Shown: one piece after another, positions 8,979-58,819 of the stretch
Position numbering within the stretch: the first letter of the stretch is position 1
How the letters are laid out: each line of letters starts with the position of its first letter
Assembly: GCF_001570525.1 (NCBI RefSeq)
Contig: NZ_BBXC01000019.1
Coordinates: 62,001-126,000 of the forward strand
Direction of reading: 5' to 3'
Source: Herbidospora sakaeratensis
GTDB lineage: Bacteria > Actinomycetota > Actinomycetes > Streptosporangiales > Streptosporangiaceae
Length of the DNA stretch: 64,000 nt
The notes under the pieces: model-generated
Database searches by the model: none
What the model saw: only the letters and a program-made list of their open reading frames with translations
Told to the model about the DNA's origin: nothing
Translations under genes and position numbers: made by a program

Positions 8979-9953
8979 GTGAGTCAGCAGCGTCGGGGGC
9001 TCGGCAAGGGTTTGGGAGCCCTCATCCCCACCGGCCCCATCGTCGACCCGTCGGTCGTCGGCGTGCCGGCCCCCACCCCACCGGGTGACAGGGAACTGAT
9101 CCCGGTGGCCGGGGCCTACTTCCACGAGATCGCCGTCACCCAGATCATCCCGAACCGCCGCCAGCCCCGAACCGTCTTCGACGAAGACCGCATCCGCGAA
9201 CTGGCCGACTCCATTGCAGAAGTCGGCCTCCTCCAGCCGATCGTCGTCCGCGCCGCCGGCGTCGACGAAGACGGCAGGGACCAGTTCGAACTCATCATGG
9301 GCGAACGCCGCCTCCGCGCCAGCCGCCTGGCCGCCCTGGAGCGCATCCCCGCGATCGTCCGCAGCACCGGCGACGACGAGATGCTGCGCGAGGCCCTGAT
9401 CGAGAACCTCCAGCGAGAGCAGCTCAACTCCCTGGAAGAAGGCGCGGCGTACCGCCAGCTCCTCGACGACTTCGGCGCCACCCACGAGCAACTGGCCAGG
9501 AAGATCGGCCGCTCCCGCTCCCACATCACCAACACCCTGCGCCTGCTGAACCTCCCCCCGAACGTCCAGCGCCGCCTGGCAGGCGGTTCGATCACCCCCG
9601 GCCACGCGAGAGCTCTCCTGTCTCTGGACAGCCCGGAAGCCCAGGAACGCCTGGCGACCCGAATCGTGGCCGAAGGCATGACGGTCCGGACGGTCGAGGA
9701 GATCGTGTCCCTGGGGGAGGCGACGGCCGGTCCCGCGCCGCGGAAGCCGAGAACGAAGCAGCCGGTGGCACCGGCACTGCGGACGCTGGCGGATCGGCTG
9801 TCGGATCACTTCGAGACCAAGGTGAAGGTCGATTTAGGGCGTCGGAAAGGGCGGATCGTGGTGGAGTTCTCCACGATCGACGACCTTGAGCGCATCATCG
9901 GAACGATGGCACCGGACGCGGCTAACCAGATGCGGGAGCAGGAGAGCGACTAG
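8979..9953 (+). CDS. parB: Chromosome partitioning protein ParB
   Basis: parS-binding CTPase that loads onto and spreads along origin-proximal DNA. The 324-residue protein opens with the family N-terminus RRGLGKGLGALIP (ParA-stimulating box). The CTP-binding domain shows IIPNRRQPRTVFDEDRIRELADSI and GERRLRASRLA, then ENLQREQLNSLEEGAAY; the helix-turn-helix region is around KIGRSRSHITNTLRLLNLP, and a C-terminal dimerisation domain ends the protein. GTG 8979 has GGAGCAAGG upstream. A parS site and a terminator-like hairpin begin right at its stop codon. Confidence 0.97.
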   Translation: MSQQRRGLGKGLGALIPTGPIVDPSVVGVPAPTPPGDRELIPVAGAYFHEIAVTQIIPNRRQPRTVFDEDRIRELADSIAEVGLLQPIVVRAAGVDEDGRDQFELIMGERRLRASRLAALERIPAIVRSTGDDEMLREALIENLQREQLNSLEEGAAYRQLLDDFGATHEQLARKIGRSRSHITNTLRLLNLPPNVQRRLAGGSITPGHARALLSLDSPEAQERLATRIVAEGMTVRTVEEIVSLGEATAGPAPRKPRTKQPVAPALRTLADRLSDHFETKVKVDLGRRKGRIVVEFSTIDDLERIIGTMAPDAANQMREQESD

Positions 9954-9967
9954 GTTTCACGTGAAAC
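9954..9967. promoter_or_regulatory. parS site 2
   Basis: Perfect GTTTCACGTGAAAC, beginning one base after the parB stop codon. Confidence 0.95.
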
Positions 9968-10000
9968 AGCTCCCTTGGACGTGAGTCCGGGGGAGCTGTT
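9965..10000 (+). terminator. Terminator-like hairpin after parB
   Basis: AACAGCTCCC (9965-9974) pairs with GGGAGCTGTT (9991-10000); the inner bases GGAC/GTCC extend the stem. The 5' arm overlaps the end of parS site 2, so ParB loading and termination share bases. Confidence 0.6.
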
Positions 10001-10041
10001 GCTTTCCGGAGGCAGGGAGCTTAGTCGCCGGGAAGGACATG

Positions 10042-10055
10042 GTTTCACGTGAAAC
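10042..10055. promoter_or_regulatory. parS site 3
   Basis: Perfect GTTTCACGTGAAAC, 88 bp from site 2, at the left edge of the gene-poor region. Confidence 0.95.
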
Positions 10056-10877
10056 CGAGACCGGATTTCTGACGAGACAGGTGGCTCCCGTTCTCTTGCG
10101 GGCGCCACAGCGGGCTTGAGCGACCTTGTCTTTTGCCCTCGCTGGCAACGGCGGGGCCAGGGGGAGGCGAGCAGGTGAGTGTGACATCTCCCGTCGCGGG
10201 ACCCCAACCACATCGTCCCCGAGTCGGCCGGTGGCTAGCCTCCTGGACGACCCGATAGACGGCACGCCGTGGGCGCACCAGCACGGTGCTCGCAGCCCCA
10301 TGCCGACGGACACTTCGGGTCGCTCTCACGGTCGCCAGCAGCGTGAGGAGCGCGGCGAGTCCATAGGCGGAGACAAGGAACGGCCCAAACCGAGACGGCC
10401 TGGCAAGGCGGTAGGCGGCAGCCTGGCCGCCGCGACCGCGCCCGACAGGTTGCCGATCTCGGCCCCGGTGATCGACTTCCTGCTGTCGCATCCAAGCGGG
10501 CAGACGATGCACACCGCCGGTTCAGCCCGGTACATGTGGCAGACAGCCAGAACACGGAGCCTTCTTCTCGAAGGGCTTGGCTCGGAGCGGAAAAACTCTG
10601 AGCAGAAGGGAAGGCGCATGGAGATGCGGCATGAAGGGGCGCCTTCCTGTGACCACTCATCAGCGCTCACCAGCCATCGACTGGACCTCTGGGGCGGCAC
10701 TGGAGGGTAGCCCGAGGCGGCGAGCCCACGTGAAGCTGAGCACAGCAGCAGCGTCGCTTGCTAGCGAAGGCCTTGTCGGGCTCAGCAGCGCTCCAGCCCT
10801 GGCGCTTGCACCGACATTGGCGCGACCCCACTTGCTCAATGGCAAGGCCGACTGAGTGCTCGGGGACGAACCTCGAT

Positions 10878-10978
10878 CGCGAAAACGTGTGAGTCGGCAT
10901 AGGCGTGAGCTTGGGCAGGGGCACCTCCCGAGAAACGTGTGGGTCCGCGCAGGCCTCGGCCTACGCAGGGGTACGTCC
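10878..10978. repeat. Imperfect tandem repeat, two units of about 50 bp
   Basis: Unit 1 10878-10928 and unit 2 10929-10978 share CG.GAAA.CGTGTG.GTC near the start and GCAGGGG.AC.TCC at the end; a third unit begins (CGCGAATG) and stops. Confidence 0.65.
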
Positions 10979-11595
10979 CGCGAATGACGCAGCTGTGGCT
11001 GCGCCGTATGTATATATGAACACGGGCAGCGAGCGTCTCTGGATGAGCGCCCATTTGCTACACGTGAGGCGCTGCACCGACGATGAGGTCGTGAGGCCAA
11101 GTTGAGGATTCCGGTAGATCTCTCACCCCGGTCGAGCCTGCTGGTCGAGACAGCAAGTCCGCGAAGAACGATGCCGTGGGCAGCGAATGAGCATCTGCCC
11201 GTCATGAGGCCGTTCATTCCGACCGGATGAGTAACCATCGGAGCTCCGGTCGGAGGGGCTCGCTACGCCAGCGCGAGGACATGACGCCGAGTCGGTGGAG
11301 CCCGGTAGATCCCTCGCCTGACATCGCTACTCGACTGCATGCTCTTCCATCCGCTGCCGTGCCACCCAGTCCGTCCTCAACTGACCGAAGGTCTGAAAGA
11401 TGATCGTGTCGTTCAGGCAAGGAGCGTCTGCCCATCACGCACTCATTCATTCCTGGCAAGGGAACGCTGAAGGCGGCCGTCGCTGCGGAGCCCTCAGATC
11501 AAGCAGACGTGATGTGCCACGGGTGCATCGGCCTCAAATTGACCCCAGCTCACTGACCGCCAGTCCAGCGTGGCGGCAGTCTCCGCCAGTGCTTC

Positions 11596-11629
11596 TGACC
11601 TATAGATCCGAGTGACCTATAGATCCGAG
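11596..11629. repeat. Perfect tandem repeat, 2 x 17 bp
   Basis: TGACCTATAGATCCGAG occurs twice without a gap. The unit contains the short palindrome CTATAG. No gene overlaps it. Confidence 0.85.
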
Positions 11630-12861
11630 CTTCGGAACACCTAGCCTGCGGTCTCAAGCGGCGGGTGGGAAAACCCTCCGGGGGCGAAGAACCCTGCTTG
11701 ATCTGTTCCACATGACCTAGCAGTAAGAAGTACTACGGAGCAGAGCTGCAGTGAACCGCTCAGCTCCGGCGCTCGAGCAGGCTCGCCATGATCGACGTTT
11801 GGCGTCCTCTCGGCTGAACCGAAGGTGTCGACCAACACCATCCTCGCTCAGGGTTTAGGGAGCATCTCGTCCCACCACTACACGAGAGACGTGGACGGTT
11901 ACCTCTGCCTCTCCCCCCGCTGTGCCGGCGGAGGTCTTAGCTCAAAGCCGATGCAGTCACCGCCACATGGCTGCGAAGGCGCGCCAGCGTGATAGGAGTT
12001 ACCAGGCGCTAGATCCATTGGTCGGTACTGACTTGATCGAATGCGTGGGCCATGTCGAAACCATCCACTACGCCTGGACAAGCAGTGGCGCAGAGAGGCA
12101 GGGATGTTTGGCGAGCGCAGAGTCGAGTTCAAGCTTGAGCGCAAAGGTCGCGCATAGGGCTGCACCTCACCCTGATTGGCATTTGGGCAACCCATCGGCG
12201 ACGAACTGGTGCTCTGTCCGCCGCGCCCACCGCATGAATTTGTGTCCGCCAGGCCCACCGCATGAACAGGAGTCCGTCGCCTGCGACAACGCGGAACCAC
12301 GCTAGAACTTGAGACCGCGTCCCTGCATTCCGACGTGCAGGGGTAACAAGACGGCGGCTCCTTGACCGAATGTCTCATGCTCGCGCACTGCAGCCGGCTT
12401 GAGGCCGGTCTGCGCGGTACCAGCACCGGGGCGCTCTTTCCTGCCTCCACGCATGCCCGGAAGGAGCAGAGGGAGGACTGGCGCGCAATCCAAGTGATCA
12501 CAGCACACCCGAGAGTCGCTCTCAGCTGGCGAGGAAGACGATGAGGCAAAGAGCCCGGCCGGTCAAGGCTGTCCGAGAGGGGAGCGCCCCACATGTGTGC
12601 GGACGTCCTCGCCGACCCTCTCTCACGCGCCTCCGCTTACCAAGGAGGACGCTGATCGTCTCGGGGATGTTTGGTTCTTCCTTCAGCTCCAACAGAACGG
12701 GAGGCTGCTGAAGATCGGCCCTCCTCTCGAACGGCTCGACCCGTGCGGAGAAGAAGACGCGAGATGAAGGAGCGCCTTCCTGTGCCACAGCTATCTGTTG
12801 CTCGCCCTAATGTCGCCCGCCCTCTTGGGCGCCGTCACTGACTTGCCGTCGGCCAGCACAC

Positions 12862-12875
12862 GTTTCACGTGAAAC
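12862..12875. promoter_or_regulatory. parS site 4
   Basis: Perfect GTTTCACGTGAAAC in the gene-poor region, 2.8 kb from site 3. Confidence 0.95.
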
Positions 12876-13417
12876 ATCGCACTGAAGCGCACTGCATTCG
12901 ACAGGCATCGTGAACGATCGCTCGACTCGGAGCAGGCGCCAGCGAGGGCGATGTCGGACCGTGAGGTCTCAGCACATCGGCACCTACCGCAAATGGCATC
13001 GCCGCGTGAGACTCACGGTCGCTAAGCTGCATCACTCATCGACGGCATGCTAGGTAAGCAGATGCCTCTCTCCCCAGAGGTGATGCGTTGGCGGCTGACG
13101 ATCCGCTGCCTCGATCGTGGTCTGCGCGTCGCCGTGCTGAGGCGCCACTCTTCTATTTTGCAGAGCCGACCGAAGGGCCATCCGGTCGGTGCAGCGGCGC
13201 TACGTCGTACGCGCTGGCCGTGGATCAGCGAGCCGGGAACCACGCGGGGAAGAGACGGCTTAGCAAGCCTGCGCGAGAGAAGTACCGCGGATGAGGATGT
13301 CATCGACAGCTGTGTGTCCAAGCTCAGGCAAATGGATCCACCGGGAACAGCGACACATCGACCTTGGCAGACACCTAGGCGGGGCCAGCCAGAGCATCAG
13401 GCCGGCCCCACCGCAAT

Positions 13418-13431
13418 GTTTCACGTGAAAC
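13418..13431. promoter_or_regulatory. parS site 5 (overlaps the threonine aldolase stop codon)
   Basis: Perfect GTTTCACGTGAAAC. The TGA stop of the minus-strand gene that follows lies inside the palindrome, and its last codons (SFT) are encoded by it. Confidence 0.95.
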
Positions 13432-14452
13432 TAAGCGCCTCATGCGTAGCCGCGATTAGCGCGTCGACGTCTTCCTCGGTCGTGTCGAAGGCCGTCACCC
13501 ACCGCACGACTCCCCCAGCCCGATCCCAATGCCCGAAGGTGAACCTCTCCATCAGGTACGCGATCGCCTTCTCCGGCAGCACCGGAAACACCGCATTCGA
13601 CTGAACCTCGTACCGGAACTTCACCACCGAAGCCACCCCGTCAGCCAACCGGTGTGCCATCGCGTTGGCATGCGAGGCGTTCCGCAGCCACAGGTCGCCA
13701 CGCAGCAAGGCGGTGATCTGAGGGGAGAAGTACCGCATCTTGGAAGCCAGCTGCATGCCCTGCTTACGAAGGAAGAGTGCCCCAGGCAGGAGTTCCGGCC
13801 GCAGGACGATCAGCGCTTCCGCCCCCAGGGCGCCGTTCTTGGTCGCGCCGTAGCTGAGGACGTCCACGCCGACAGCGGTCGTGATGTCCCCCAGACCGCA
13901 GCCGAGTTCGGCGGCCGCGTTGGCCAGTCGAGCTCCGTCCATGTGGAGGAAGAGGCCGTTCTCATGAACCACCTCCGCCAGCGCCGCGATCTCTTCAGGC
14001 GTGTAGACGGTCCCGCACTCGGTCACCTGCGAGATGGACACCACCCGAGGCTGCGACAGGTGCTCGTTGCCGACAGCCCCAAGCTGCGCGAGCACGTCGG
14101 CAGGCCGGAGCTTCCCGTCATCCGTCGCCACGGTGAGCAGCTTCGTCCCGAGAACCCGCTCGGCGGCGCCGGCCTCGTTGCCGTTGATGTGGGCACTGGC
14201 TGGGCAGATCACCCCGTCGTACGGCCGGAGCATCAACCCCAGCCCCACCACGTTGGCCCCGGTCCCGTTGAACATGGCGTAACCCTGCGCCTGTTCCCCG
14301 AAGACCTCCCGGACAGCGCTCTCCATGTCGGCCGTCCAGGGATCGCTGCCATAGGGGAGCGTGTCACCGTCGTTGGCCGCAACGACCGCTGCCATCACCT
14401 CGGGATGAACACCCGCATGATTGTCACTACCGAAGCTTTTCGCATGAACCAC
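13421..14452 (-). CDS. Low-specificity L-threonine aldolase family enzyme
   Basis: PLP-dependent enzyme expected to cleave L-threonine or allo-threonine to glycine and acetaldehyde in the cytosol. The 343-residue product has the fold-type I pattern of this family: SDNHAGVHPEVM at the start, AHINGNEAGA (88-97), the HMDGAR motif (170-175) with the PLP-ring aspartate, and SYGATKNGALGAEA with the Schiff-base lysine at 205. The start is GTG 14452 with no clear ribosome site. It is isolated in the gene-poor island and ends within a parS site. Its composition is closer to the rest of the genome than its surroundings. Confidence 0.9.
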   Translation of the reverse strand: MVHAKSFGSDNHAGVHPEVMAAVVAANDGDTLPYGSDPWTADMESAVREVFGEQAQGYAMFNGTGANVVGLGLMLRPYDGVICPASAHINGNEAGAAERVLGTKLLTVATDDGKLRPADVLAQLGAVGNEHLSQPRVVSISQVTECGTVYTPEEIAALAEVVHENGLFLHMDGARLANAAAELGCGLGDITTAVGVDVLSYGATKNGALGAEALIVLRPELLPGALFLRKQGMQLASKMRYFSPQITALLRGDLWLRNASHANAMAHRLADGVASVVKFRYEVQSNAVFPVLPEKAIAYLMERFTFGHWDRAGGVVRWVTAFDTTEEDVDALIAATHEALSFT

Positions 14453-14974
14453 CCGCCAAGCCTAGGTCAGCGCCCTCCTGGCCCAGACGCCCAGGTCCCG
14501 CCAGACCAGGCCCGACGGCGGCCACGAGATCAAAGCGACGTCACACCCTTGTATCGGCTGAGGTGCCTGAAGCTGATCGACTCGAAAGCCTGGAAGGTGG
14601 CCATGCATTCCATAGGGGAGTAGACCGTGCTGTTGCGAACGTAGATGAAGAGACCAAGCTGCCTGGGTGCCATCCAGGCGAACCTCCATCGCATATCTGC
14701 TCGATGACTCCGCACCTTTGGGAGGAACGTATGCCTACAACGGCGGGGAGCATGTACGGCTGCTGATGACACGTCATCATGCGAGTAGACGGGTCCCGGT
14801 CGCTCATCCCGGTCGCTCATCCCGGTCGCTCATCCCGGTCGCTCATCCACGGCTTACGAGACCCGACACAGGAGTACGGCTGAGTGAGCATCGACACCTT
14901 GTTGCTGAACGTTAGAGCCGACTCTTCAACCCGCTCGAAATGTTCATGCCCCAACCCGTAGACGACCTCGTCTC
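14453..14974. other. Stretch with no recognised gene
   Basis: About 520 bp of lower-GC sequence. Open frames (for example minus strand 14530-14820) match nothing I know and lack ribosome sites. The only clear structure is the 13-bp tandem array described separately. Confidence 0.5.
14795..14846. repeat. Tandem repeat, 4 x 13 bp
   Basis: Four exact copies of CCCGGTCGCTCAT. The 13-bp unit is not a multiple of three, so it is unlikely to be coding. It has no spacers, so it is not CRISPR-like. Confidence 0.9.
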
Positions 14975-15669
14975 ATGGCTCCCGGAGAAGCCTTGGTGCT
15001 GACATCTTCTGGCGATACGGGAAATCGGCGCTGCAACATCTCATGGGCGGTCTGGCCGACCAGCGAACGTGTCGACACCGCAGGCATACGGTCCCTTGCC
15101 CGGCTGCGGCGCCGGTCGGTGGAATTCGTCTTCCAGTCCTTCCATCTGGTGGAGGAGCTGTCGACAGCCGAGGCTTCCTCGACGACGCGACGGCCCTGGA
15201 GGTCCGGTCGCATCTCGCGATCTGCGACGCCTGCGGGGAAAGCCTCGCCGGTCTGGCCGCGGTTCGCGAACTCCTCTCGGCGGTGCCGGTGACCGCCATG
15301 CCGCTGGGCGTCGCGATGCGGATCGACAGGGCCCTTGAGTCCGAGGCGGAGCGGGGTGGCCTCCGCCTCGTCGAAGCGCCCGACTGAGAGCGGTAGCGGG
15401 TGGCCGTCGCCCACGTCCTGGCCAACGAGCCGCTGGTGATGACGGCGGACGAGCTGACTGGTAACCGCGACACCACGGCGACCAACGAGGTGCTGCGTCT
15501 GTTCGCCGGGCTGCGCGACATGGGGCAGACCCTCGTATTGGTCACCCATGACGGGCGGATCGCGGTCACTGCCGACCAGCTGATCTCGATGGGCGACGGA
15601 GTCGGCCAGGTTCTGCACAACCTCCATCAGCTTCTGAGAGGTCTTCGACAAACCGTCCGGGCCGATTAA
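14975..15669 (+). pseudogene. Broken ABC-transporter ATPase (MacB/LolD-like) carrying an anti-sigma gene fragment
   Basis: Pieces of one ATP-binding protein are readable in two frames. PGEALVLT is followed, one frame over, by Walker A GKSALQHLMGGL (from 15019), then back to RLRRRSVEFVFQSFHLVEEL (Q-loop, up to about 15160). The part that should link the Q-loop to the LSGGE signature is replaced by 211 bp of the anti-sigma gene. The ATPase then resumes at 15388 with an in-frame amber codon (15394-15396, where the family has Gln), RVAVAHVLANEP, Walker B LVMTADELTGN, and the H-loop LVTHDG. Frameshifts, stop and replacement make it non-functional. No partner permease gene is present nearby. Confidence 0.85.
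15176..15386 (+). repeat. Inverted duplicate of the anti-sigma gene, copy A
   Basis: 211 bp that match 22197-22407 (opposite strand) at 209 positions; the two differences are adjacent-region substitutions near 15375. It encodes the anti-sigma zinc motif HLAICDAC and the sequence up to VEAPD, then meets a stop codon. Confidence 0.95.
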
Positions 15670-16075
15670 CCGGGGTGGGCTTCACAGTGTCGCCCGTCTT
15701 GGTCACATCGATAGACCACGCCAACCTCAGACGAATCGTCGGTCGACTGAAAGACGATGAACGGCCCTGTGGTTGGTGGACCACGCGTTAATGGTGCAGG
15801 TGGACAGCCTGCCAGGGGTCGTCCGGGCGCCGGAGGGATGGGCTGGGCGAATGCGACGAGATCCTGGATTCGCCGGTCGTATCCGAGAGCGAGAGCCGCT
15901 GGAAGTCGCACTGACCCCCGCCGCCCACCTCCTGGTCACCGCCCGGAAGGCGACATATGTGCACTAGTACGCACTAGACGCCTTGTGTGGTTTTGTGCGC
16001 AGAACGGCCCCTGGCCCCGGTCCTAGCGTGAGCGTCGTCCGGAAAGACGGACGACGAACCACAACGGAGGAAACA
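15670..16075. other. Gap upstream of the secreted-protein gene
   Basis: About 400 bp with no recognisable gene. A possible frame 15773-15967 (plus) has no ribosome site or family. Just before the next gene there is a short direct repeat (GCACTAG twice, 15960-15977). The promoter of the gene at 16076 must lie here. Confidence 0.4.
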
Positions 16076-16504
16076 GTGCACACGATCGGCAAGCTGCTCG
16101 CCGGAACCGTTCTCGCCGGCATCGCAGCCACGGGGGTTGCTATCGCACCGGCCGCCACGGCATCCGCCACCACCGCGTCGACCTCCGCGTCGGCCGCGCA
16201 GTACGGCTCCAGCTGGGACCGCTTCGAGCGGGGCGACGGTCGCTTCGACTACCGCTGGGGCAAGAGCGGCGGCCGCTACTGGCTCGACTTCCGCATGTGG
16301 GACCGCGACCACAACGACCGTGACTACAGCTTCTTCGACGTCTACTACAAGAACGACGGGAAGTGGTTCTTCTACAAGCGGTACAACACCAAGAGCTTCC
16401 TGTCCAAGCACATCGTCTTCGGCAAGCACGTCGACGACTTCCGCGTCCGCGGCGGCTACGGCCACAACGGCAGCTTCGGCTGGGGCGGCTGGCACCACCG
16501 CTAA
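16076..16504 (+). CDS. Secreted protein of unknown function, aromatic-rich
   Basis: 142 residues from GTG 16076, preceded by CGGAGGA at the right distance. Residues 1-31 form a Sec signal peptide (IGKLLAGTVLAGIAATGVAIAP, then an ATASA-type cleavage site). The mature part, about 110 residues, is unusually rich in Trp, Tyr, Phe, Asp, Lys and His, with alternating aromatic/charged runs (DRFERGDGRFDYRWG, DYSFFDVYYKND) and a Gly/His/Trp tail (GWGGWHHR). It has no cysteine. I do not recognise the family; the pattern would fit a small beta-rich extracellular protein. A strong terminator follows, so it is a single-gene unit with good signals inside a decayed region. Confidence 0.8.
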   Translation: MHTIGKLLAGTVLAGIAATGVAIAPAATASATTASTSASAAQYGSSWDRFERGDGRFDYRWGKSGGRYWLDFRMWDRDHNDRDYSFFDVYYKNDGKWFFYKRYNTKSFLSKHIVFGKHVDDFRVRGGYGHNGSFGWGGWHHR

Positions 16505-16533
16505 AACGACTCCCACGGGGTGCTGATGTGACA

Positions 16534-16560
16534 GGCCCGGACCTTCATGGTCCGGGCCTT
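16534..16560 (+). terminator. Terminator after the secreted-protein gene
   Basis: Perfect 10-bp stem GGCCCGGACC (16534-16543) / GGTCCGGGCC (16549-16558) with loop TTCAT, followed by TT. Confidence 0.8.
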
Positions 16561-16689
16561 CGGCATTTCTCCACCGCGTAGAACGATGGCCGATCCGCCG
16601 CTTCGGCTGCTCAGGGAGGTCATAGGCGCACCGCTGAGCGAGCGGATGCTTGCCACTCACGCGGCGGATCACCCCATAGAACGCTCAAG

Positions 16690-16842
16690 CAGCCTCCCCG
16701 CCCGCTGCCGGTCTCACCGGCATAGGCTCGGGATCTCGGGTTTCGACTATGAGGTTTCCGCCGAGGTCCCCCTCGATCTGCACATCTCAGATTGTGCGTC
16801 TCGGGCCGCCTGCTCGCCACGATCACCCGTTGGGCCGGAGCG
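16690..16842 (+). pseudogene. Decayed fragment of dnaN
   Basis: The plus strand resembles codons 20-70 of the dnaN at 733-1869, in inverted orientation. AGCCTCCCCGCCCG at 16691 matches the codons for SLPAR; after a few small deletions ISGFDYEVSAEVPLDLH (16732-16782) matches the clamp's LSGFDYEVSAEVTLDLQ; then TCTCGGGCCGCCTGCTCGCC (16799-16818) and GATCACCCG match the codons for SGRLLAEITR, in another frame. Similarity fades after 16842. Substitutions and frameshifts show it is much older than the anti-sigma duplicate. The rest of 16561-17025 shows nothing I recognise. Confidence 0.75.
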
Positions 16843-17025
16843 TGCGGGTGATCACCACGGCCCCGCCGGCTTCCGGATTTGTGACAACACCCGGCAGACC
16901 GTCTCGAGATCTGCCGGAGTCCACCGACGGCCGCATCCTGGAGGCGATCAAGCCTGTCCGGCGGGAACCGGCCTCGGGATGCGCGACGCCACGTGTCCGG
17001 ATCCCGCCAGGTCCGAAACGGGCGA

Positions 17026-17979
17026 TCAACCCCGGCGTCCCGCCGCAATCTCCAGCAACCCCCGGCAAAGCGCCCCCAGATCCCGTCCAGCCGCCTCAGC
17101 CGCCATAGGCAGCAGCGAAGTCTCCGTCATCCCAGGCGCCACATTCACCTCGAGAAACCAAGGCTTCCCGTCGCCATCGACAATCAGGTCAGTCCGCGAA
17201 ACGTCCCGCAGCCCCAACGCCGAATGCGCCGCCACAGCCATGGCCTCACAAGCCGCCATGGCCTCGTCCCCCAACCGCGCCGGCGCGAAGAACTCGGTCC
17301 GCCCCGCCGTATACCGAGCCGCGTAGTCGTAAGCCCCGCCGTCAGGCACGATCTCCACGGGAGGCAACGCCACCGGCCCCTCCCCCAGGTCGACAACCGA
17401 CACGGCCACCTCAACGCCTTCGATGTACGTCTCGATCAGCGCCGTGTCCCCATAGGCGAAACACCCCACCATCGCCGCCGGCAGTTCCTCGGCCGACCGC
17501 ACGATGGAAGCCCCAAGCGCCGACCCGCCACGCGAAGGCTTCACGAACAGAGGCAATCCCAGGGAGTCGACGATCCGCGAAAGCACCGCGGAAGCCCCCA
17601 GGTCGTGAAATGTCTCCTTGGGGAGGGAAACGGAGTCCGGCGTGTTCAACCCCCACGACCGCACCACGGCCTTGGCGGTCGGCTTGTCGAAAGCCACCCG
17701 GCACGCGTCCGGCGCCGCCCCCACGTATGGCACGCCGAGGAGCTCCAGAACGGTCCGGATCGCGCCGTCCTCGCCGGCCCCGCCGTGCAAGGTCACGAAG
17801 ACCGCGGTGGGCCGGTCGGCGAGGACGGAGGGCACCAGGGACGAGTCGGTGTCGCGGGTCTCCACGTCGACGCCCTGGGCGCGCAACACTTCGGCCACCC
17901 GGCGGCCGGACCTGATGGAGACCTCACGCTCGTAGGACAGTCCTCCTGCCAGCACGAGCACGTTCCCGAGATCGCTCAT
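17026..17979 (-). CDS. ddl: D-alanine--D-alanine ligase
   Basis: ATP-grasp enzyme that makes D-Ala-D-Ala for peptidoglycan precursors. The 317-residue product starts LGNVLVLAGGLSYEREVSIRS, has the family's TLHGGAGEDGAI, VKPSRGGSALG (ATP-binding lysine and loop), ETYIEGVEVAVSVV, and the metal-binding end SRTDLIVDGDG...FLEVNVAPGMTETSLLP. It is shorter than typical Ddl (about 350) but all motifs are there. It is preceded on the same strand by the aminotransferase gene, with a strong hairpin between the two, so they are probably separate transcripts. The ligase substrate (Ala versus Lac or Ser) cannot be settled by eye. Confidence 0.92.
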   Translation of the reverse strand: MSDLGNVLVLAGGLSYEREVSIRSGRRVAEVLRAQGVDVETRDTDSSLVPSVLADRPTAVFVTLHGGAGEDGAIRTVLELLGVPYVGAAPDACRVAFDKPTAKAVVRSWGLNTPDSVSLPKETFHDLGASAVLSRIVDSLGLPLFVKPSRGGSALGASIVRSAEELPAAMVGCFAYGDTALIETYIEGVEVAVSVVDLGEGPVALPPVEIVPDGGAYDYAARYTAGRTEFFAPARLGDEAMAACEAMAVAAHSALGLRDVSRTDLIVDGDGKPWFLEVNVAPGMTETSLLPMAAEAAGRDLGALCRGLLEIAAGRRG

Positions 17980-17999
17980 AGCCCGGCCTTTCTCCGATT

Positions 18000-18033
18000 C
18001 TGTACGGCTAGCCCGAACAGGCTAGCCGTACAG
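18000..18033. terminator. Perfect hairpin between ddl and the aminotransferase
   Basis: A 14-bp perfect stem CTGTACGGCTAGCC / GGCTAGCCGTACAG around CGAACA, in the gap between two minus-strand genes (20 bp before the ddl start). It may terminate the aminotransferase transcript or act as an operator for ddl. Confidence 0.65.
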
Positions 18034-18037
18034 AGGA

Positions 18038-19363
18038 TCAGGCGAGGTCTGGACCGGGTGTGTCCACCCCGGAGTGACCGGCCCGGGACCGGGTGCCGAA
18101 CATCTCCACGGTCCGGAGTTCTTCCTCGATGACGCCGGCCAGGCGGCGGACGCCCTCGCGGATGCGGTCGGGCTGCGGGTAGCAGTAGGACAGGCGCATG
18201 TGCCTCGATCCCGAGCCGTCGGCGTAGAAGCCGGTGCCGGGGACGAAGGCGACGCGCTTGTCCACGGCCTGGGGGAGCATGGCCTTGGAGTTGAGGCCCT
18301 CGGGGAGGGTCATCCACACGAAGAAGCCGCCGGCCGGTTTGGTCCAGGTGCAGCCCTCGGGCATCAGGGTTTCGAGTGCGCCCAGGAGGGCGTCGCGGCG
18401 TTCGCGGTAGAGCTCGCGGAAGGTCTTGATCTGCTCCCGCCACGGCTGGGTCGTCAGGTACTGCCCGACGGCCAGCTGGGTGAAGGTCGAGTGGGACAGG
18501 ACCGCCGACTCCATCGCCAGCACGAGCTTCTGGCGGATCGCGTGGGGGGCCAGGGCCCAGCCGACCCGGAAGCCGGGTGCCAGGGTCTTCGAGAACGATC
18601 CCAGGTAGACCACCCCGTCGGGGTCGTCGGCGCGCAGGGCGCGCAGCGGCTCGCCGTCGAAGCCGAGCAGGCCGTAGGGGTTGTCCTCGACGACCAGGAT
18701 GCCGGCCTTCTGGCAGATCTCCAGGACCTGGCGGCGGCGGACCAGGTTGAGGGTCACGCCGGCCGGGTTCTGGAAGGTCGGGATCGTGTAGAGGAACTTG
18801 ATGCGCTGGCCGGAGGCCTGGAGCGCGTAGATCGTCTGCGCCAGGGACTCGGGAATGAGGCCCTGGTCGTCCATGGCGATGTGGACGACCTTGGCCTGGT
18901 AGGCCGAGAAGGTGCCCAGGGCGCCGACGTAGGACGGACCTTCGGCGAGGACGATGTCGCCGGGGTCGACGAAGATGCGGGTGATCAGATCGAGCGCCTG
19001 CTGCGAGCCCACCGTGACGACGACGTCGTCGGCGCCCGCGTCGATGCCCTCCATGCGCATGACCTCGCAGATCTGCTCGCGCAGTGCGGGGTCACCCTGG
19101 CCCGAGCCGTACTGCAGGGCTTCGGGACCGCGGCGGTTGACGAGGTCGGCGACCAGTTCGCCGACCACGTCGAGGGGGAGCGCCGTGACGTAGGGCATGC
19201 CGCCGGCGAGGGAGACCACTTCCGGCCTCGATGCGACGGCGAACAGAGCTCGGATCTCGGAGGCGACCATCCCGGTAGCTCGTGCGGCGTACCGATCGAC
19301 GTAGGCATCGATGCGTGACCCGTGGGTCGCGGGTGTCCGACCGTGATCCGTCTCATTCGTCAC
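18038..19363 (-). CDS. PLP-dependent aminotransferase, class I/II (MocR/2-aminoadipate type)
   Basis: Fold-type I aminotransferase without the GntR domain of true MocR regulators. I start it at GTG 19363 because GGAGG lies seven bases upstream; an earlier frame extension of 21 codons has no site. The 441-residue product has VVSLAGGMPY near the start, LQYGSGQGDPALREQI, VTVGSQQALDLI, TIPTFQNPAG (Asn binding PLP), VEDNPYG, and LGSFSKTLAPGFRVGW with the Schiff-base lysine. Relatives act on 2-aminoadipate, aromatic or branched-chain amino acids; the substrate is not evident. It belongs to the set of genes commonly found between parB and trxA in this group. Confidence 0.85.
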   Translation of the reverse strand: MTNETDHGRTPATHGSRIDAYVDRYAARATGMVASEIRALFAVASRPEVVSLAGGMPYVTALPLDVVGELVADLVNRRGPEALQYGSGQGDPALREQICEVMRMEGIDAGADDVVVTVGSQQALDLITRIFVDPGDIVLAEGPSYVGALGTFSAYQAKVVHIAMDDQGLIPESLAQTIYALQASGQRIKFLYTIPTFQNPAGVTLNLVRRRQVLEICQKAGILVVEDNPYGLLGFDGEPLRALRADDPDGVVYLGSFSKTLAPGFRVGWALAPHAIRQKLVLAMESAVLSHSTFTQLAVGQYLTTQPWREQIKTFRELYRERRDALLGALETLMPEGCTWTKPAGGFFVWMTLPEGLNSKAMLPQAVDKRVAFVPGTGFYADGSGSRHMRLSYCYPQPDRIREGVRRLAGVIEEELRTVEMFGTRSRAGHSGVDTPGPDLA

Positions 19364-19544
19364 GGTCCACCTCCGTTTCATAGGCGTTAATTCAGAGGGT
19401 AAGGCAGCCGGGTGAACGGTCCGCAATCGGTATCAGCATGAGAGAAGGGCCGTGTGCTGCGCGCCGAATTCCTGTTCGGACCGGGAGCACCGGCTACTAT
19501 TCCAGCAAAACTGCCGGGACCAATGCCGGGAATAGGGGCGTCAC

Positions 19545-20165
19545 GTGTCGCGTCGGCTGGCCAGCATCACGCTCGACAATCTTGATGACCTGCCGCGCAG
19601 GTGTCGTAATTGCGTGTTCTGGGAGCTCGACCCCATGGGGGGCGAGCGGGCCGCGCAGGCCGGGGAGCCGAGCCTCGAGAAGGAGGCGTGGGTCTCCGCC
19701 ACGCTGCTCGAATGGGGTTCCTGCGGCAAGATCGCCTATGTCGACGGGGTGGCCGCGGGCTTCGTCCTGTACGCGCCGCCGCTATACGTGCCGCGATCGG
19801 TCGCCTTCCCCACGTCGCCGGTGAGTTCCGACGCGGTGCTGCTGATGACCGCCCACATCATTCCGGAGTTCTCCGGCGGCGGGCTGGGGCGCATGCTCGT
19901 GCAGGGCGTGGCGAAAGATCTGACCCGCCGGGGTGTACGCGCCATCGAGGCGTTCGGCGACCTGAAATGGGAGCAGCCGGGGGCGTGCGTGATGCCGGCC
20001 GATTATCTGCTGTCGGTGGGCTTCAAGACGGTCCGCCCGCATCTGCGCTTCCCCCGCCTGCGGCTGGAGCTGAAGACCGCCGTCTCGTGGCGTGAGGACG
20101 TCGAGGTGGCTCTGGAACGGCTGCTCGGCTCCATGAGCCCCGAACGGGCGCTCCGGCCCGTCTGA
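19545..20165 (+). CDS. GNAT-family N-acetyltransferase
   Basis: A 206-residue cytosolic protein with a GNAT core: substrate-side strands IAYVDGVAAGFVLYAP, then LLMTAHIIPEFSGGGLGRMLVQGVAKDL, where GGGLGRM is the acetyl-CoA pyrophosphate loop, and a late YLLSVGFKTVR strand. The N-terminus has a CRNCVFWE motif, a CxxC-type pair that is typical of a conserved actinobacterial GNAT subfamily next to trxA. It starts at GTG 19545 and is convergent with trxA, with a terminator between them. The acceptor substrate is unknown. Confidence 0.85.
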   Translation: MSRRLASITLDNLDDLPRRCRNCVFWELDPMGGERAAQAGEPSLEKEAWVSATLLEWGSCGKIAYVDGVAAGFVLYAPPLYVPRSVAFPTSPVSSDAVLLMTAHIIPEFSGGGLGRMLVQGVAKDLTRRGVRAIEAFGDLKWEQPGACVMPADYLLSVGFKTVRPHLRFPRLRLELKTAVSWREDVEVALERLLGSMSPERALRPV

Positions 20166-20196
20166 AACGATCTGAGAGCCGTACAGGCCCAAAGAA

Positions 20197-20222
20197 GAAG
20201 CCCTCCCCGGAGGGAGGGCTTC
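20197..20222. terminator. Bidirectional terminator between the GNAT gene and trxA
   Basis: Perfect 10-bp stem GAAGCCCTCC / GGAGGGCTTC around CCGGAG, flanked by A-rich sequence on the left, thus T-rich for the minus-strand transcript. Confidence 0.8.
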
Positions 20223-20227
20223 CGAAA

Positions 20228-20551
20228 CTAGATGACGCCGTCGAGTTCGCGGAGCAGCATCGCCTTCGGCTTGGCGCCGATGATCTGCTTGACGACCTCG
20301 CCGCCCTTGTAGACGTTCATCGTCGGGATCTGCAGGATCCCGTAGTCGCGGGCGATGTCGGGGTTCTCGTCGATGTTGAGCTTCACGACGGTCAGCTTGT
20401 CGGCGTGCTCGTTGGCGATCTCCTGCAGGATCGGCGCGACCTGGCGGCACGGCCCGCACCACTCGGCCCAGAAGTCGACGATGACGGGCTTGTCGCTCTG
20501 CAGGACCTCGGACGCGAAGTCCTTGGTGGTGACGTTCTTGACGGTGCCCAC
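20228..20551 (-). CDS. trxA: Thioredoxin
   Basis: A 107-residue cytosolic disulfide reductase with the active-site motif WCGPC at residues 31-35 (FWAEWCGPCRQ), the conserved lysine/aspartate region KLNIDENP and the cis-proline IPTMNVYKGG. ATG 20551 has a GGAGAG ribosome site. It is 27 bp downstream of trxB and receives electrons from it; the two form one operon. Confidence 0.97.
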   Translation of the reverse strand: MGTVKNVTTKDFASEVLQSDKPVIVDFWAEWCGPCRQVAPILQEIANEHADKLTVVKLNIDENPDIARDYGILQIPTMNVYKGGEVVKQIIGAKPKAMLLRELDGVI

Positions 20552-20578
20552 GATGGCTCTCCTTGTGTTGGGTGGGAA

Positions 20579-21508
20579 CTATTCCTGGTCGGTGAGCCAG
20601 CGCTCCGCGTCGAGCGACGCGGCGCAGCCGGTGCCCGCTGCGGTGATGGCCTGGCGGTAGGTGTGGTCGACGACGTCGCCACAGGCGAACACGCCGGGGA
20701 TGTTGGTCTTGGTGGTGGGCGCCTCGACCTTGATGTAGCCCTCGTCGTCGAGGTCGATCTGGCCCGCCACGATCGTGCTGCGCGGGTCGTGGCCGATCGC
20801 CAGGAACAGGCCGGTCGCGTCGACGGTCGACTCCTCGCCCGTCTTGACGTTGCGGACCCGCACGCCGGCGACCTTGGCCTCGCCCAGGACGTCGACGACC
20901 TCGCTGTCCCAGAGGAAGCGGATCTTCTCGTTGTTGAACGCCCGCTCCTGCATGATCTTGCTGGCGCGTAGCTCGTCGCGGCGGTGCACGACGGTGACCG
21001 ACCGGGCGAACCGGGTCAGGAAGGTGGCCTCCTCCATGGCGGTGTCGCCGCCGCCGACGACCACGATGTCCTGGTCGCGGAAGAAGAAGCCGTCACAGGT
21101 GGCACACCAGGAGACGCCCTTGCCGGACAGCCGCTTCTCGTTGACCAGGCCGAGCTCGCGGTAGCCGGAGCCGGTGGCCAGGATGACCGACTTGGCGTAG
21201 TAGGTGTCGGTGTAGGTCTTGACGACCTTGGGGTTGGCGTTCAGGTCGACCTCGACGACGTCGTCGGCGACGAGTTCGGCGCCGAACCGCTCGGCCTGCT
21301 TGCGCAGGTTGTCCATGAGGTCGGGGCCCATGATGCCGTCGGGGAACCCGGGGAAGTTCTCCACGTCGGTGGTGTTCATGAGGGCGCCGCCGGCGGTCAC
21401 CGAACCCTCGAAGACCAGTGGACGTAGATCGGCTCGGGCGGAATAGACGGCCGCCGTGTAGCCGGCCGGGCCCGACCCGATGATGATCACGTTACGGACG
21501 TCGCTCAA
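20579..21508 (-). CDS. trxB: Thioredoxin-disulfide reductase
   Basis: FAD- and NADPH-dependent flavoenzyme that reduces thioredoxin. The 309-residue product has the FAD motif GSGPAGY (11-17), the redox pair CATC (135-138), the NADPH motif [10 protein letters not shown] (152-161), [10 protein letters not shown] (2'-phosphate recognition) and the C-terminal FAD motif [24 protein letters not shown]. This is the low-molecular-weight bacterial type. It follows sigM and its anti-sigma gene but is separated from them by a terminator, so trxBA has its own promoter, possibly SigM- or redox-controlled. Confidence 0.97.
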
Positions 21509-21582
21509 CGCTCTGCCTCTCCTTCAAGCTCTGCACGGGCGTCAACAGATCCTAGGCGTCGGCGATTCCCGCCACACATGAC

Positions 21583-21612
21583 GAAGGCCCCGCGGCATTC
21601 CGCGGGGCCTTC
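21583..21612 (-). terminator. Terminator between the anti-sigma gene and trxB
   Basis: Perfect 13-bp stem GAAGGCCCCGCGG / CCGCGGGGCCTTC with loop CATT, 14 bp after the anti-sigma stop codon. Confidence 0.85.
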
Positions 21613-21625
21613 GATCAGCAGAAAC

Positions 21626-22462
21626 TCAGTTCCAGGTCGCGAGACCCTCGGGACGCAGGTTGTGGCAGTCGGGGCCGACCACGACCACGCGGACCGCGTT
21701 GATCGTCTTGTCCTCCCAGAAGGCCATGATCGTGGCGTCCTGGCCGTTGTAGAAGGCCTGGTCGACCGCTATCGGCTGGCGGTCGAGCTCGTTGGCCTTG
21801 TGGGCCACGCACTTGTCGGTCTGCGCGTCGGTGTTGGTACCGGTGCCGGGCTCGGGACCGAAGTAGCCGAGCAGGGGGCCGTTCAGCTCGCGCGAGGTGT
21901 AGTTGTGCCCGCTGGCCCGCACGGCCCAGGCCGACTCGGCCGTCTTCAGCGGCGACTTCTCGGGCGAGACGGCCGGTCCGGCCACGGTGACGCCTCCGTC
22001 ACCCGATCCGGACGCCACGATCTGCGTGGCCAGGCCCACTCCGCCGAACACCACGGCCGCCGCGGCGGCGGCCGCGACCGGCATCGCCCAAGCGCGGCCG
22101 CGAGTCTTCTTCCGGCGAGCTGCCAGCGGCACCACGGGCGCGGTCGGCGCCGGCTCGACCGGCTGCTCCCAGGGCGAGTCCTTCATGATCTCGTCCCAGT
22201 CGGGCGTCTCGACGAGGCGGAGGCCACCCCGCTCCGCCTCGGACTCAAGGGCCCTGTCGATCCGCATCGCGACGCCCAGCGGCATGGCGGTCACCGGCAC
22301 CGCCGAGAGGAGTTCGCGAACCGCGGCCAGACCGGCGAGGCTTTCCCCGCAGGCGTCGCAGATCGCGAGATGCGACCGGACCTCCAGGGCCGTCGCGTCG
22401 TCGAGGAGGCCCTCGGCGAGTTCGGCCAGGATCTCCAGGTCGTAGTGCGTGTCACCCGTCAC
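21626..22462 (-). CDS. Zinc-type transmembrane anti-sigma factor (RsmA-like, partner of SigM)
   Basis: Predicted membrane-anchored inhibitor of the ECF sigma factor encoded just upstream. The start is GTG 22462 (GAAGGGAGC upstream), so the gene overlaps sigM by 11 bp. The 278-residue product has an N-terminal zinc-associated anti-sigma domain with H31-x3-C35-x2-C38 (HLAICDAC), a basic stretch RRKKTRGR, one membrane helix at about 125-147 and an extracytoplasmic part of about 130 residues with several cysteines. Mycobacterial Rv3912 at the same place is the SigM anti-sigma factor. A 211-bp part of this gene (codons about 19-89) is duplicated at 15176-15386. Confidence 0.9.
   Translation of the reverse strand: MTGDTHYDLEILAELAEGLLDDATALEVRSHLAICDACGESLAGLAAVRELLSAVPVTAMPLGVAMRIDRALESEAERGGLRLVETPDWDEIMKDSPWEQPVEPAPTAPVVPLAARRKKTRGRAWAMPVAAAAAAAVVFGGVGLATQIVASGSGDGGVTVAGPAVSPEKSPLKTAESAWAVRASGHNYTSRELNGPLLGYFGPEPGTGTNTDAQTDKCVAHKANELDRQPIAVDQAFYNGQDATIMAFWEDKTINAVRVVVVGPDCHNLRPEGLATWN
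22197..22407 (-). repeat. Inverted duplicate of the anti-sigma gene, copy B (parent)
   Basis: Part of the intact anti-sigma gene; its duplicate lies 6.8 kb away in opposite orientation at 15176-15386. Recombination between the two would invert the DNA between them, including ddl, the aminotransferase, GNAT and trx genes. Confidence 0.95.
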
Positions 22463-23096
22463 GAAGTTGTGCTCCCTTCGGGGATGAGACGCGAGTGAGG
22501 TCGGTTCGGTTCCGCAGATGGGAAAGAATCGGGGCAAGTTTCGCGCGCCCCCGCGCACAACGACTCTTCACCGTTCCGGCCGGTACGTCCAGTACGGCGG
22601 CGGCGTCCTCGACCGAGTAGCCCATCATGTCGACGAGCACCAGAGCGGCCCGCTGGTCGGCCGGCAGCAGCTTGAGCGCGGCCGTGACCTCGAGAGACAC
22701 CTCGCGCTCGGCGGTCTGGTCGGGCAGCGGCATGTCGCGTTCGGCGGCCTCGATGAGCTCGTCGTCGGCGACGGGCCGGACCGATTTCCGGCGCATACGG
22801 TCAAGACAGGCGTTCACCACGATGCGGTGCAGCCACGTGGTGACGGCGGCGTCGCCCCGGAAGCTCTCGGCCTTGCGGTAGGCGGACACGAAGGCGTCCT
22901 GCACCGCGTCGGCGGCCTCGTCGGGGTCGCCGAGCGTCCGCAGGGCGACGGCCCACATGCGGTCGCGATGGCGCTTGACGATCTCGCTGAACGCCGTGGT
23001 GTCGCCCTCGATGTGACGGGTCAGCAAATCGGCATCACTCAGCGCCGGCCGACCGGAGAGGTCGGTCGGTGGGGGTATGTCTGGCGGCGAGGTCAC
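22452..23096 (-). CDS. sigM: ECF RNA polymerase sigma factor SigM
   Basis: Group 4 sigma factor. The 214-residue product has region 2 (FSEIVKRHRDRMWAVALRTLGDPDEAADAVQDAFVSAYR) and region 4 (ALKLLPADQRAALVLVDMMGYSVEDAAAVLDVPAGTVKSRCARGRAKL), and no SnoaL or other extra domain. GTG 23096 is the start. It is followed with overlap by its anti-sigma gene and then trxBA, the same order as Mycobacterium Rv3911-Rv3914. In mycobacteria SigM responds to surface or oxidative stress; that role is inherited by analogy only. A 51-bp repeat element lies just upstream. Confidence 0.95.
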   Translation of the reverse strand: MTSPPDIPPPTDLSGRPALSDADLLTRHIEGDTTAFSEIVKRHRDRMWAVALRTLGDPDEAADAVQDAFVSAYRKAESFRGDAAVTTWLHRIVVNACLDRMRRKSVRPVADDELIEAAERDMPLPDQTAEREVSLEVTAALKLLPADQRAALVLVDMMGYSVEDAAAVLDVPAGTVKSRCARGRAKLAPILSHLRNRTDLTRVSSPKGAQLRDG

Positions 23097-23198
23097 TGGT
23101 CTGCCGATCCCGAGGGGTTCACGTGCACGATGGTGCCACCATACTTCCCTCTGCGAACGGCAAAGCGCGTAAACCAGATCAAACCGGCCTGCTTCTAT

Positions 23199-23249
23199 GG
23201 CAGGTTCAGAGCGCGAGCCACGGTCGGCCTCCGGCCGCCCGCGTCTCGC
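23199..23249. repeat. 51-bp hairpin element, copy 1
   Basis: Matches 42933-42983 at about 46 of 51 positions. The end arms GCGAG / CTCGC are conserved, and the inner arms around GGCC retain pairing in both copies. It sits two bases after the pseudokinase gene and about 100 bp before sigM. Confidence 0.8.
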
Positions 23250-23250
23250 G

Positions 23251-24738
23251 TCATTCCTTCACTCCCAGAAGCTTCACGTCGCGGATCATGGTCCGGTAGC
23301 CGTTGTTGTGCGGGGGCAGCTCGGTGAACCACACGAGCAGGTAGCGGGTGGGCGACGAGCCGTTGAGGTCGAAGGTCACCTTGCCGCTGACGTCTTTGCG
23401 GGTGAGGAAGGTCTTGAGGCTCTCGGGCGCGGGAGAGGCGCCGGTACGCAGCTCGACCGTCCCGCCGGAGGCGCCGAAGTCGATCACCGCCTGGGTCAGC
23501 CGGGTCTCCTTGCCCAGGTCGAGCAGCAGGCCGACGCCGTCTTTGAGGCGGCCGAAGTCGGGGCCGCCGTAGGTCTCGGAGTGCCAGTCGGTGGTGGCCG
23601 AGCCGTCGATGGCCAGGGCGGCCAGCTCGTTGCGCTCCTCGCCGTCGCCGAGAGGGTCGAAGCCGGTCGCGCCGGAGATCTTCACCTCGGCGGGCTTGCC
23701 CGCCGCCTGGCCCTCTTCGGCCGTGGCGCTCGGGGCGGCGCTGGGGACGGCGGGCTCGGTGCCCAGGCTCTTGCCGAGCGTCCAGGCGCCGACGCCGACC
23801 ACGACCATGGCCAGCAGCACCACCACGGTCAGCAGGAACCGCGACAACATGGGGGAGCGGCGCGGCGCCGGGCGGTGGATCATCGGCGGCATCGGCGGCC
23901 GGCCGCCGATCGTGTCGACCGGCTCGGAGCGCAGCTCGACGGCCGGGGGCAGGGTCGAGACGGAGGCGGGGGCCGGGCGGGGCACCTCGGCCAGGGCCTC
24001 GGCGACCTCCATCGGGGAGTCCATCGGCTCGACCGACTTGCGCAGGCCGAGGATGCGCGAGGTGATCGTGTCGAGGTAGTTGGGCACACCCGCGGTGACC
24101 TGGCGCGGGGTGCAGTAGTGGTCGTCGTCGAGGGGGGCCTCGGGCAGGCCGCAGTCGTCGTCGGGCGAGGGCCAGTGGCCGGTGAGGGCGGCGTACAGGA
24201 GACGGCCGAGACCCTCGGCGTCGGCCTGGGCGCGTTCTTCTTCGGTGAGGTTGTCGGCGATGTCGAGGATCGCGGCGTCGACGCCGACCCCGAGGACCTT
24301 CACGGTGTTGCCGGAGGTCCACATCAGCCGGTTGGGGGCCAGGTTGAGGTGGGCCAGGCCGTGTTCGTGGGCGTGGGCGATGGCCTCGGCGGCCTCGGCG
24401 ACCAGGGCGGCGCCGCGTTCGGCTTCCAGCGGGCCGGCCGCGAGCAGGTCGAGCAGCGACTCGCCGGAGACCCACTCGCTGACGACGTAGGCGACGCCGT
24501 CTTCGTCGGCGGCGTCGAAGACCTGGGTGAGGCGGGGGTCGGTGAGGCGGGAGGCGGCTCGCGCGGCGATGACCACCTCGTGCTGGCGTTCGAAGTCGGG
24601 AGCGAAGGTGTGCACGGCCACCGGCCGGGCCAGCACTTCGTCGATGGCCTTCCAGAAGGTGGCGCCGGACGACTCGTTCACCCGGTCTTCCAGCCGGAAT
24701 CGATCAGCGAGACGGGTTCCGGGTTCGACAGTGGACAT
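23251..24738 (-). CDS. Membrane pseudokinase with C-terminal discoidin-like domain, MurJ-associated
   Basis: 495 residues from ATG 24738. Residues 1-255 have a protein-kinase fold but lack catalytic residues: the beta-3 lysine position reads VAVHTF (His43), the catalytic loop reads HLNLAPNR (Asn132 for Asp), and DFG is replaced by LGVG. One membrane helix lies at 301-322, and the extracytoplasmic end (about 360-495) looks like a discoidin/F5-8C beta-sandwich (AIDGSATTDWHSE). In Mycobacterium this pseudokinase is fused to MviN/MurJ (Rv3910), is phosphorylated by PknB and binds FhaA to restrain lipid II export. Here it is a separate gene directly after murJ. Confidence 0.88.
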   Translation of the reverse strand: MSTVEPGTRLADRFRLEDRVNESSGATFWKAIDEVLARPVAVHTFAPDFERQHEVVIAARAASRLTDPRLTQVFDAADEDGVAYVVSEWVSGESLLDLLAAGPLEAERGAALVAEAAEAIAHAHEHGLAHLNLAPNRLMWTSGNTVKVLGVGVDAAILDIADNLTEEERAQADAEGLGRLLYAALTGHWPSPDDDCGLPEAPLDDDHYCTPRQVTAGVPNYLDTITSRILGLRKSVEPMDSPMEVAEALAEVPRPAPASVSTLPPAVELRSEPVDTIGGRPPMPPMIHRPAPRRSPMLSRFLLTVVVLLAMVVVGVGAWTLGKSLGTEPAVPSAAPSATAEEGQAAGKPAEVKISGATGFDPLGDGEERNELAALAIDGSATTDWHSETYGGPDFGRLKDGVGLLLDLGKETRLTQAVIDFGASGGTVELRTGASPAPESLKTFLTRKDVSGKVTFDLNGSSPTRYLLVWFTELPPHNNGYRTMIRDVKLLGVKE

Positions 24739-44845: not shown

Positions 44846-44939
44846 CGTCGTGCTCGCCGAAGGATTCGGCGCTCCGGGTCAGGTGAGAGCGGCCGGCTTC
44901 GACCTCCGAGTCAGATGAGGGCGTGGACATCGCCTGGAG

Positions 44940-45190
44940 CGCACCTACTCGGCCGGGCTCACCCGCGCCAGGTCACCCGGCTGGCCTGTGCGGAGAACCG
45001 GCGTATGGGCAGCGCTAGGGATCTGACCGGTCTGAGTGGAGAATCTGCGCCTAGGGAGGGCCAGATCGGGCGGGCTCACCTGTGTTGGGTCATCCGGCTG
45101 GTCTGTGCGGAGAGCCTGCGCGTGGGGAGCGCCGGGTCGGCCGGGCTCACCCGCGTTGGGTCATCCGGCTGGCCTGTGCGGAGACAGGTC
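44940..45190. repeat. Imperfect direct repeats of about 71 bp
   Basis: A core GGGCTCACC.G.GTTGGGTCA (then TCCGGCTGG.CTGTGCGGAGA) recurs at 44955-44997, 45072-45113 and 45142-45184. The second and third units are full 71-bp neighbours (about 45037-45108 and 45109-45179). The region is between the convergent rplI and MATE genes and has no credible reading frame; the rest of the 424-bp gap is otherwise blank. Confidence 0.8.
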
Positions 45191-57293: not shown

Positions 57294-57308
57294 TCGACCC
57301 TAATTATT

Positions 57309-57340
57309 CCAGAGCTTCGGACACAAATCCGAAGCTCTGG
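57309..57340. terminator. Perfect hairpin between the XRE-TPR and GntR genes
   Basis: 13-bp stem CCAGAGCTTCGGA / TCCGAAGCTCTGG with loop CACAAA, just after the stop of the XRE-TPR gene on the minus strand, followed on that strand by AATAATTA. Confidence 0.75.
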
Positions 57341-57345
57341 GAGGC

Positions 57346-58674: not shown

Positions 58675-58755
58675 CTGTTCTCTCAGGGCAGGGGATTGGT
58701 CAATGGTCCCGCCATGATGGCACGAAGCTGTCGAATCGGGTAACCCTCCCGTCAA

Positions 58756-58794
58756 GAATCCCGAGGGCGAACTATGTTCGCGCCTCGGGAATCC
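58756..58794 (-). terminator. Hairpin downstream of the PH-domain gene
   Basis: AATCCCGAGGGCGAAC pairs with GTTCGCGCCTCGGGAATC with one bulge; it closes the PH-domain transcript on the minus strand. Confidence 0.6.
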
Positions 58795-58819
58795 TCGCTG
58801 GAAAGCGGCATAACGGACG

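Follow-up and report, generated by a model that had tools for sequence, protein, structure and literature searches.

In the draft genome of the soil actinomycete Herbidospora sakaeratensis, a spacer between genes holds a dead copy of an ABC-ATPase gene in which 129 bp, measured against an intact ABC gene, are absent and about 215 bases of an anti-sigma-like gene stand in their place. This patch is an inverted and nearly identical copy of a segment lying 7 kb away on the same contig, and it was probably captured or copied during end-joining repair of a double-strand break. Coordinates refer to the window, by which we mean the whole 64,000-nucleotide stretch that was analysed (Table 1). The preliminary description, made from the letters of the window alone, had proposed a dead ABC copy holding an inverted anti-sigma-like piece; set against the intact ABC gene and six congeners, the locus bears this out, and the patch within the decayed ABC gene is confirmed as a real arrangement. 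It belongs to a known type of event, of which it is a naturally occurring case. Fragment capture in actinomycete break repair has so far been known from induced breaks, and a natural case in which both parent genes are identifiable, beside a conversion-like tract, offers a site at which one can ask how scars of this sort arise, survive and come to be refreshed; the locus also bears on how spacers acquire pieces of other genes.

Table 1 Features of the patched locus, its donor and the surrounding spacer (window coordinates).
Feature	Position	Strand	Remarks
5′ part of ABC-ATPase pseudogene	15019..15172	+	Degenerate Walker A end, Q-loop; frame shifted
Left join	15167..15172	+	GCCGAG common to patch, ABC gene and anti-sigma-like gene
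Patch	15173..15387	+	Inverted copy of anti-sigma-like gene segment, replacing 129 bp of ABC gene
Right join	15384..15390	+	G or GGGA shared
3′ part of ABC-ATPase pseudogene	15388..15603	+	Walker B, H-loop; one in-frame stop
Small intact gene with upstream region	15882..16558 (gene 16076-16504)	+	
dnaN-like gene piece	16726..16829	+	77% with gaps; parent at window 1631-1744, opposite strand; label by eye
L12-like gene piece	16924..16994	+	88% to G000:C16:1908-1979
Spacer part without DNA match in corresponding spacer of six congeners	~14562..17021	.	blastn
Donor, anti-sigma-like gene adjoining ECF sigma gene	21626..22462	-	zf-HC2 20.6 bits, cut-off 22.2
ECF sigma factor gene beside donor	22452..23096	-	

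The decayed ABC-ATPase copy and its inverted patch

The two ABC parts that flank the patch have 82% (15049-15172) and 85% (15388-15603) identity to the intact ABC gene, which lies elsewhere in the same genome (L012:6129-6854; G000:C7); positions 14975-15018 were placed in the ABC gene by eye only. Along these parts stand, in order, remnants that we take to be a Q-loop (VFQSFHLVEEL), a Walker B motif (VMTADELTG) and an H-loop (VLVTHD), and upstream of the Q-loop, in a different frame, lies the degenerate end of a Walker A motif (GKSALQHLMGGL, 15019-15054). The LSGG signature is gone and the ABC frame restarts at ER*RVAVA; with its frame changes, in-frame stop and absent signature, the copy does not encode a working ABC-type ATPase. 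It differs from the copy in its own genome at 54 of 340 positions (15, 13 and 26 by codon position), and these flanks of the patch look unconstrained, as differences fall at all codon positions.

In a phylogenetic tree the ABC remnant fell within a clade of six Herbidospora rows (support 92/87), on a branch of 0.17 compared with 0.010-0.058 for the other five rows. Its nearest relative was G001 (0.141), with the own-genome copy at 0.159 and the order within the clade unsettled; as G001 is nearer, the own-genome copy is a candidate direct parent only. We rejected an ABC copy from outside the genus, as the tree (10 of its 15 inner branches open) places the remnant inside the Herbidospora clade. 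A mobile-element origin was also set aside: there was no match among phage records, and the plasmid collection gave five records, all at 60-80% identity and over the ABC stretch only.

The patch and its donor form inverted arms of 218 nt (15172-15389 and 22194-22411) that are 98% complementary, with 6804 nt between them. Over 15167-15389 they have 219 identities, four mismatches and one gap; all five differences lie close to the joins, and the longest identical run reaches 199 nt (15176-15374 against 22209-22407). This is no chance match, because its E value in a whole-genome search is 1.2e-104. The preliminary description had likewise reported ordered ATPase motif remnants, a 211-bp match to 22197-22407 (here 209 of 211 positions, to 15176-15386) and a decayed ATPase around an almost perfect copy, and on these points our results agree with it, the Walker A end being degenerate and out of frame. 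We call the donor anti-sigma-like partly from its position beside an ECF sigma gene, its zf-HC2 score falling below the cut-off. Three states (alignment columns 132, 163 and 175) are common to the patch and to genes of the host genome and G004 only, and the donor was therefore one of the host lineage; at column 211 the patch has the G004 state and not that of its own donor. A search for the 28 bases of the left join gave 3 of 140 loci, all three being the window's own place, and the patch was not found in the congeners.

That the arrangement is an artefact of assembly is very hard to credit: the five differences between patch and donor, the position of both joins within a 207,952-base contig and the divergence of the ABC flanks from the other copy all argue against it, even though the genome is a draft of 35 contigs and contains perfect repeats of 199 and 439 bases (the latter in a neighbouring gene, see below), lengths that short reads may fail to span and over which a consensus could level out differences.

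The patch is probably a scar without function of its own, to judge from its sequence. One may postulate that the patched open reading frame (15043-15387) yields a working soluble anti-sigma mini-protein, as an ATG in the ABC part leads into an open anti-sigma frame, which retains HLAICDAC and gives a weak zf-HC2 match (19.2 bits against a cut-off of 22.2, a test that does not discriminate here, the complete parent also falling short with 20.6). We give this reading very little credence, however; the zf-HC2 match begins at profile position 16 rather than at position 7 as in the parent, the ABC flanks look unconstrained, the six congeners have no such block, and a consensus scan of 14900-15900, which can miss actinomycete promoters, found no sigma-70-type promoter match. 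There was likewise no Rfam match at gathering score within 13000-24000 that would indicate an RNA gene.

Joins and routes of formation

The base A at 15387, at the right join, is found in neither parent, and this join can be read in two ways, either as GGGA followed by one later change or as a single G with an added A, the GGGA reading being less sure. Under a simple chance model with 70% G+C, the probability of the shared length is 0.003 for at least six bases, 0.027 for at least four and 0.50 for at least one. The left join alone is telling, because chance would give its six bases at only 0.003, compared with 0.027-0.50 on the right. Shared bases at the left junction had been noted before and recur here as GCCGAG in all three sequences, whereas the "CTGAG-like" bases earlier described at the right junction were a loose reading of G or GGGA.

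In the explanation that we favour, an extra copy, Herbidospora in origin, of a chromosomal ABC-ATPase gene would have lost its function and decayed in the spacer, and a double-strand break would have opened within it. End joining would have healed this break by inserting a segment of the anti-sigma-like gene, some 215 bp long, in inverted orientation; six bases are shared at the left join and between one and four at the right, and the near-identity of patch and donor would reflect either a recent event or later gene conversion. Consistent with this route, the insertion was accompanied by the loss of 129 bp of target, and the joins have the microhomology (GCCGAG on the left; G or GGGA on the right) or the added A that end joining leaves. 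The host genome encodes Ku (PF02735, 190.5 bits, over the cut-off), and a DNA_ligase_A_C domain of the ATP-dependent kind (PF04679, 91.4 bits) lies about 0.7 kb from it. The other short gene pieces in this spacer, like those in the spacers of G003, G005 and G006 (see below), are also in keeping with this route.

The closest precedent is fragment capture at nuclease-induced breaks in Streptomyces ambofaciens. In that study, three scars contained inserts, two of them (42 and 83 bp) derived from sequence near the break and one (30 bp) from another place, 1-6 nt of microhomology was present in 50% of scars and nucleotide addition in 40%, and insertions of up to 18.8 kb were counted overall (PMC5869714). 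The H. sakaeratensis patch resembles these scars in being a short endogenous insert, two of their three also coming from near the break, in having 1-6 nt of microhomology or added nucleotides at its joins, and in occurring in a genome with Ku and a DNA-ligase domain (PMC5869714). It differs in that it is natural and inverted, with a donor 7 kb away, and its roughly 215 bp exceed the 30-83 bp recorded there for inserts at the central experimental break (PMC5869714), which counts against end joining. Further points against this route are that one shared base at the right join has no weight (chance about 0.5), that short shared bases are equally expected from template switching, and that the differences at 15375-15376, about 12 bp inside the patch, are far in for simple end trimming.

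An alternative is replicative template switching of the MMBIR type, in which a stalled fork would have copied about 215 bp of the opposite-strand anti-sigma-like gene and then switched back. Microhomology-mediated break-induced replication is known for inverted copies of nearby sequence, short shared bases and changes near the joins, and the inverted orientation, the donor 7 kb off, the short shared bases and the clustering of changes near the joins here are all in keeping with it; dnaN-like and dnaA-like ORFs (labels by eye) occur within the window's first 4.2 kb, and replication may start nearby. Here, however, the insert is single and short, the region from the aldolase-like gene to the sigma gene showed no larger rearrangement, and losing 129 bp while gaining a short insert is just as compatible with a healed break. 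Template switching thus fits nearly as well as end joining, and the sequence on its own does not separate them, but we consider it the less likely of the two, perhaps a one-in-several prospect. The preliminary description had named template switching, which is one possibility among others; end joining, for which the S. ambofaciens experiments offer an actinomycete precedent (PMC5869714), is no less likely.

A third route, short-patch double illegitimate recombination, is improbable. In this process a single-stranded genomic fragment anneals at short matches and replaces a segment, here that of the ABC gene, and its patches are usually shorter than the one described here. The swap of an ABC segment for an unrelated one between two short matches is in keeping with such recombination, a process named in PMC7192050; the patch is distinguished from it by its greater length.

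Age of the patch and a neighbouring conversion-like tract

About 670 bp beyond the patch lies a small gene, secreted by eye, for which a right-frame scan gave no Pfam family. A tract of 439 bases (16060-16498), which sets in shortly before the start of this gene and stops near its end, is identical to a paralogue on the opposite strand of the same contig, about 30 kb off (G000:C19:47266-47704), whereas the region upstream has 78% identity to that paralogue (72/92) and is closer to the G005 copy (89/101). This pattern of identity next to divergence resembles gene conversion, so that conversion into this spacer is plausible. In G004, two paralogues of the small gene look near-identical over the coding region, and their flanks differ.

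The patch may accordingly be read, under any of the routes above, as being about as old as the ABC decay, its middle 199 bp having been refreshed by conversion from the anti-sigma-like gene. The ends of the patch differ from the donor at 5 of 25 positions, a rate like that of the ABC remnant (54/340; P = 0.58), whereas the core differs at 0 of 199, although these boundaries were set after seeing the data; if five changes fell at random among 224 positions, 199 consecutive positions would stay unchanged with P = 7.5e-5. The neighbouring 439-base tract points the same way. Errors at the junctions would give the same pattern, however, as clustered end differences are also expected from error-prone joining, and there are only five differences in all, so that we hold refreshment to be a little less probable than its opposite. 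The earlier suggestion that the copy is recent or has been kept alike by conversion can be retained in both its parts, and conversion has become more than a guess, given the 439-base tract beside a flank of about 78%.

The surrounding spacer

The spacer is bordered by a beta-eliminating-lyase (threonine-aldolase-like) gene and a D-Ala-D-Ala-ligase-like gene. Comparison of the locus in relatives, which the preliminary description had recommended, showed by blastn, at E limits of 1e-5 and 1e-2, that nothing in the equivalent spacers of six congeners matches 14562-17021 at the DNA level; two congeners align up to about 14561, and the corresponding spacers range from about 350 to 2700 bp. Within this block lie two further gene pieces, dnaN-like and L12-like, to which the preliminary description had not drawn attention; the parent gene of the latter has a weak match to the L7/L12 C-terminal domain (21.5 bits, cut-off 25.9). 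The G003 spacer holds another part of the same L12-like gene, in reverse orientation relative to that of the host. Over 15167-16829, all three best parents on the same contig (anti-sigma-like, small-gene paralogue and dnaN-like) are opposite in strand to their copies, a 3/3 result that chance can give.

We tentatively raise the idea that this Herbidospora spacer is a hot spot in which breaks were repeatedly healed with short chromosomal gene pieces, some later refreshed by conversion; each Herbidospora species would then carry its own archive of captured fragments. Five of the seven Herbidospora spacers (G000, G003, G004, G005 and G006, leaving aside G001 and G002) were searched against their own genomes, and all five match beyond themselves. 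Short gene pieces occur in G000, G003, G005 and G006; the G004 spacer has a transposase-like remnant (by eye), and that of G005 also has weaker matches of greater length, among them one with 64% identity over about 800 bp. Scoring in these searches and in the controls covered 40 first-look candidates, and the counts are lower bounds. The controls also matched their own genome, at least twice beyond itself for 9950-13440 and at least nine times for 57300-58822, a region that was chosen by a crude base-composition rule and may be partly coding; among the matches listed, the longest in a control was 59 bp and the best 27/27 (E 2.7e-5). The short pieces could also be larger duplicates trimmed by deletions, which argues against capture. 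From five spacers and two controls the pattern is only suggestive, and we think a hot spot unlikely.

Some minor features of the window may also be recorded. The region 9950-13440 comprises 3.5 kb with little coding signal beside a parB-like ORF (by eye), and its matches, at least two, are short (27 and 26 bp). A 13-base unit is present in four tandem copies at 14797-14848, and at 44931-45184 there is an imperfect tandem repeat whose unit measures roughly 70 bases.
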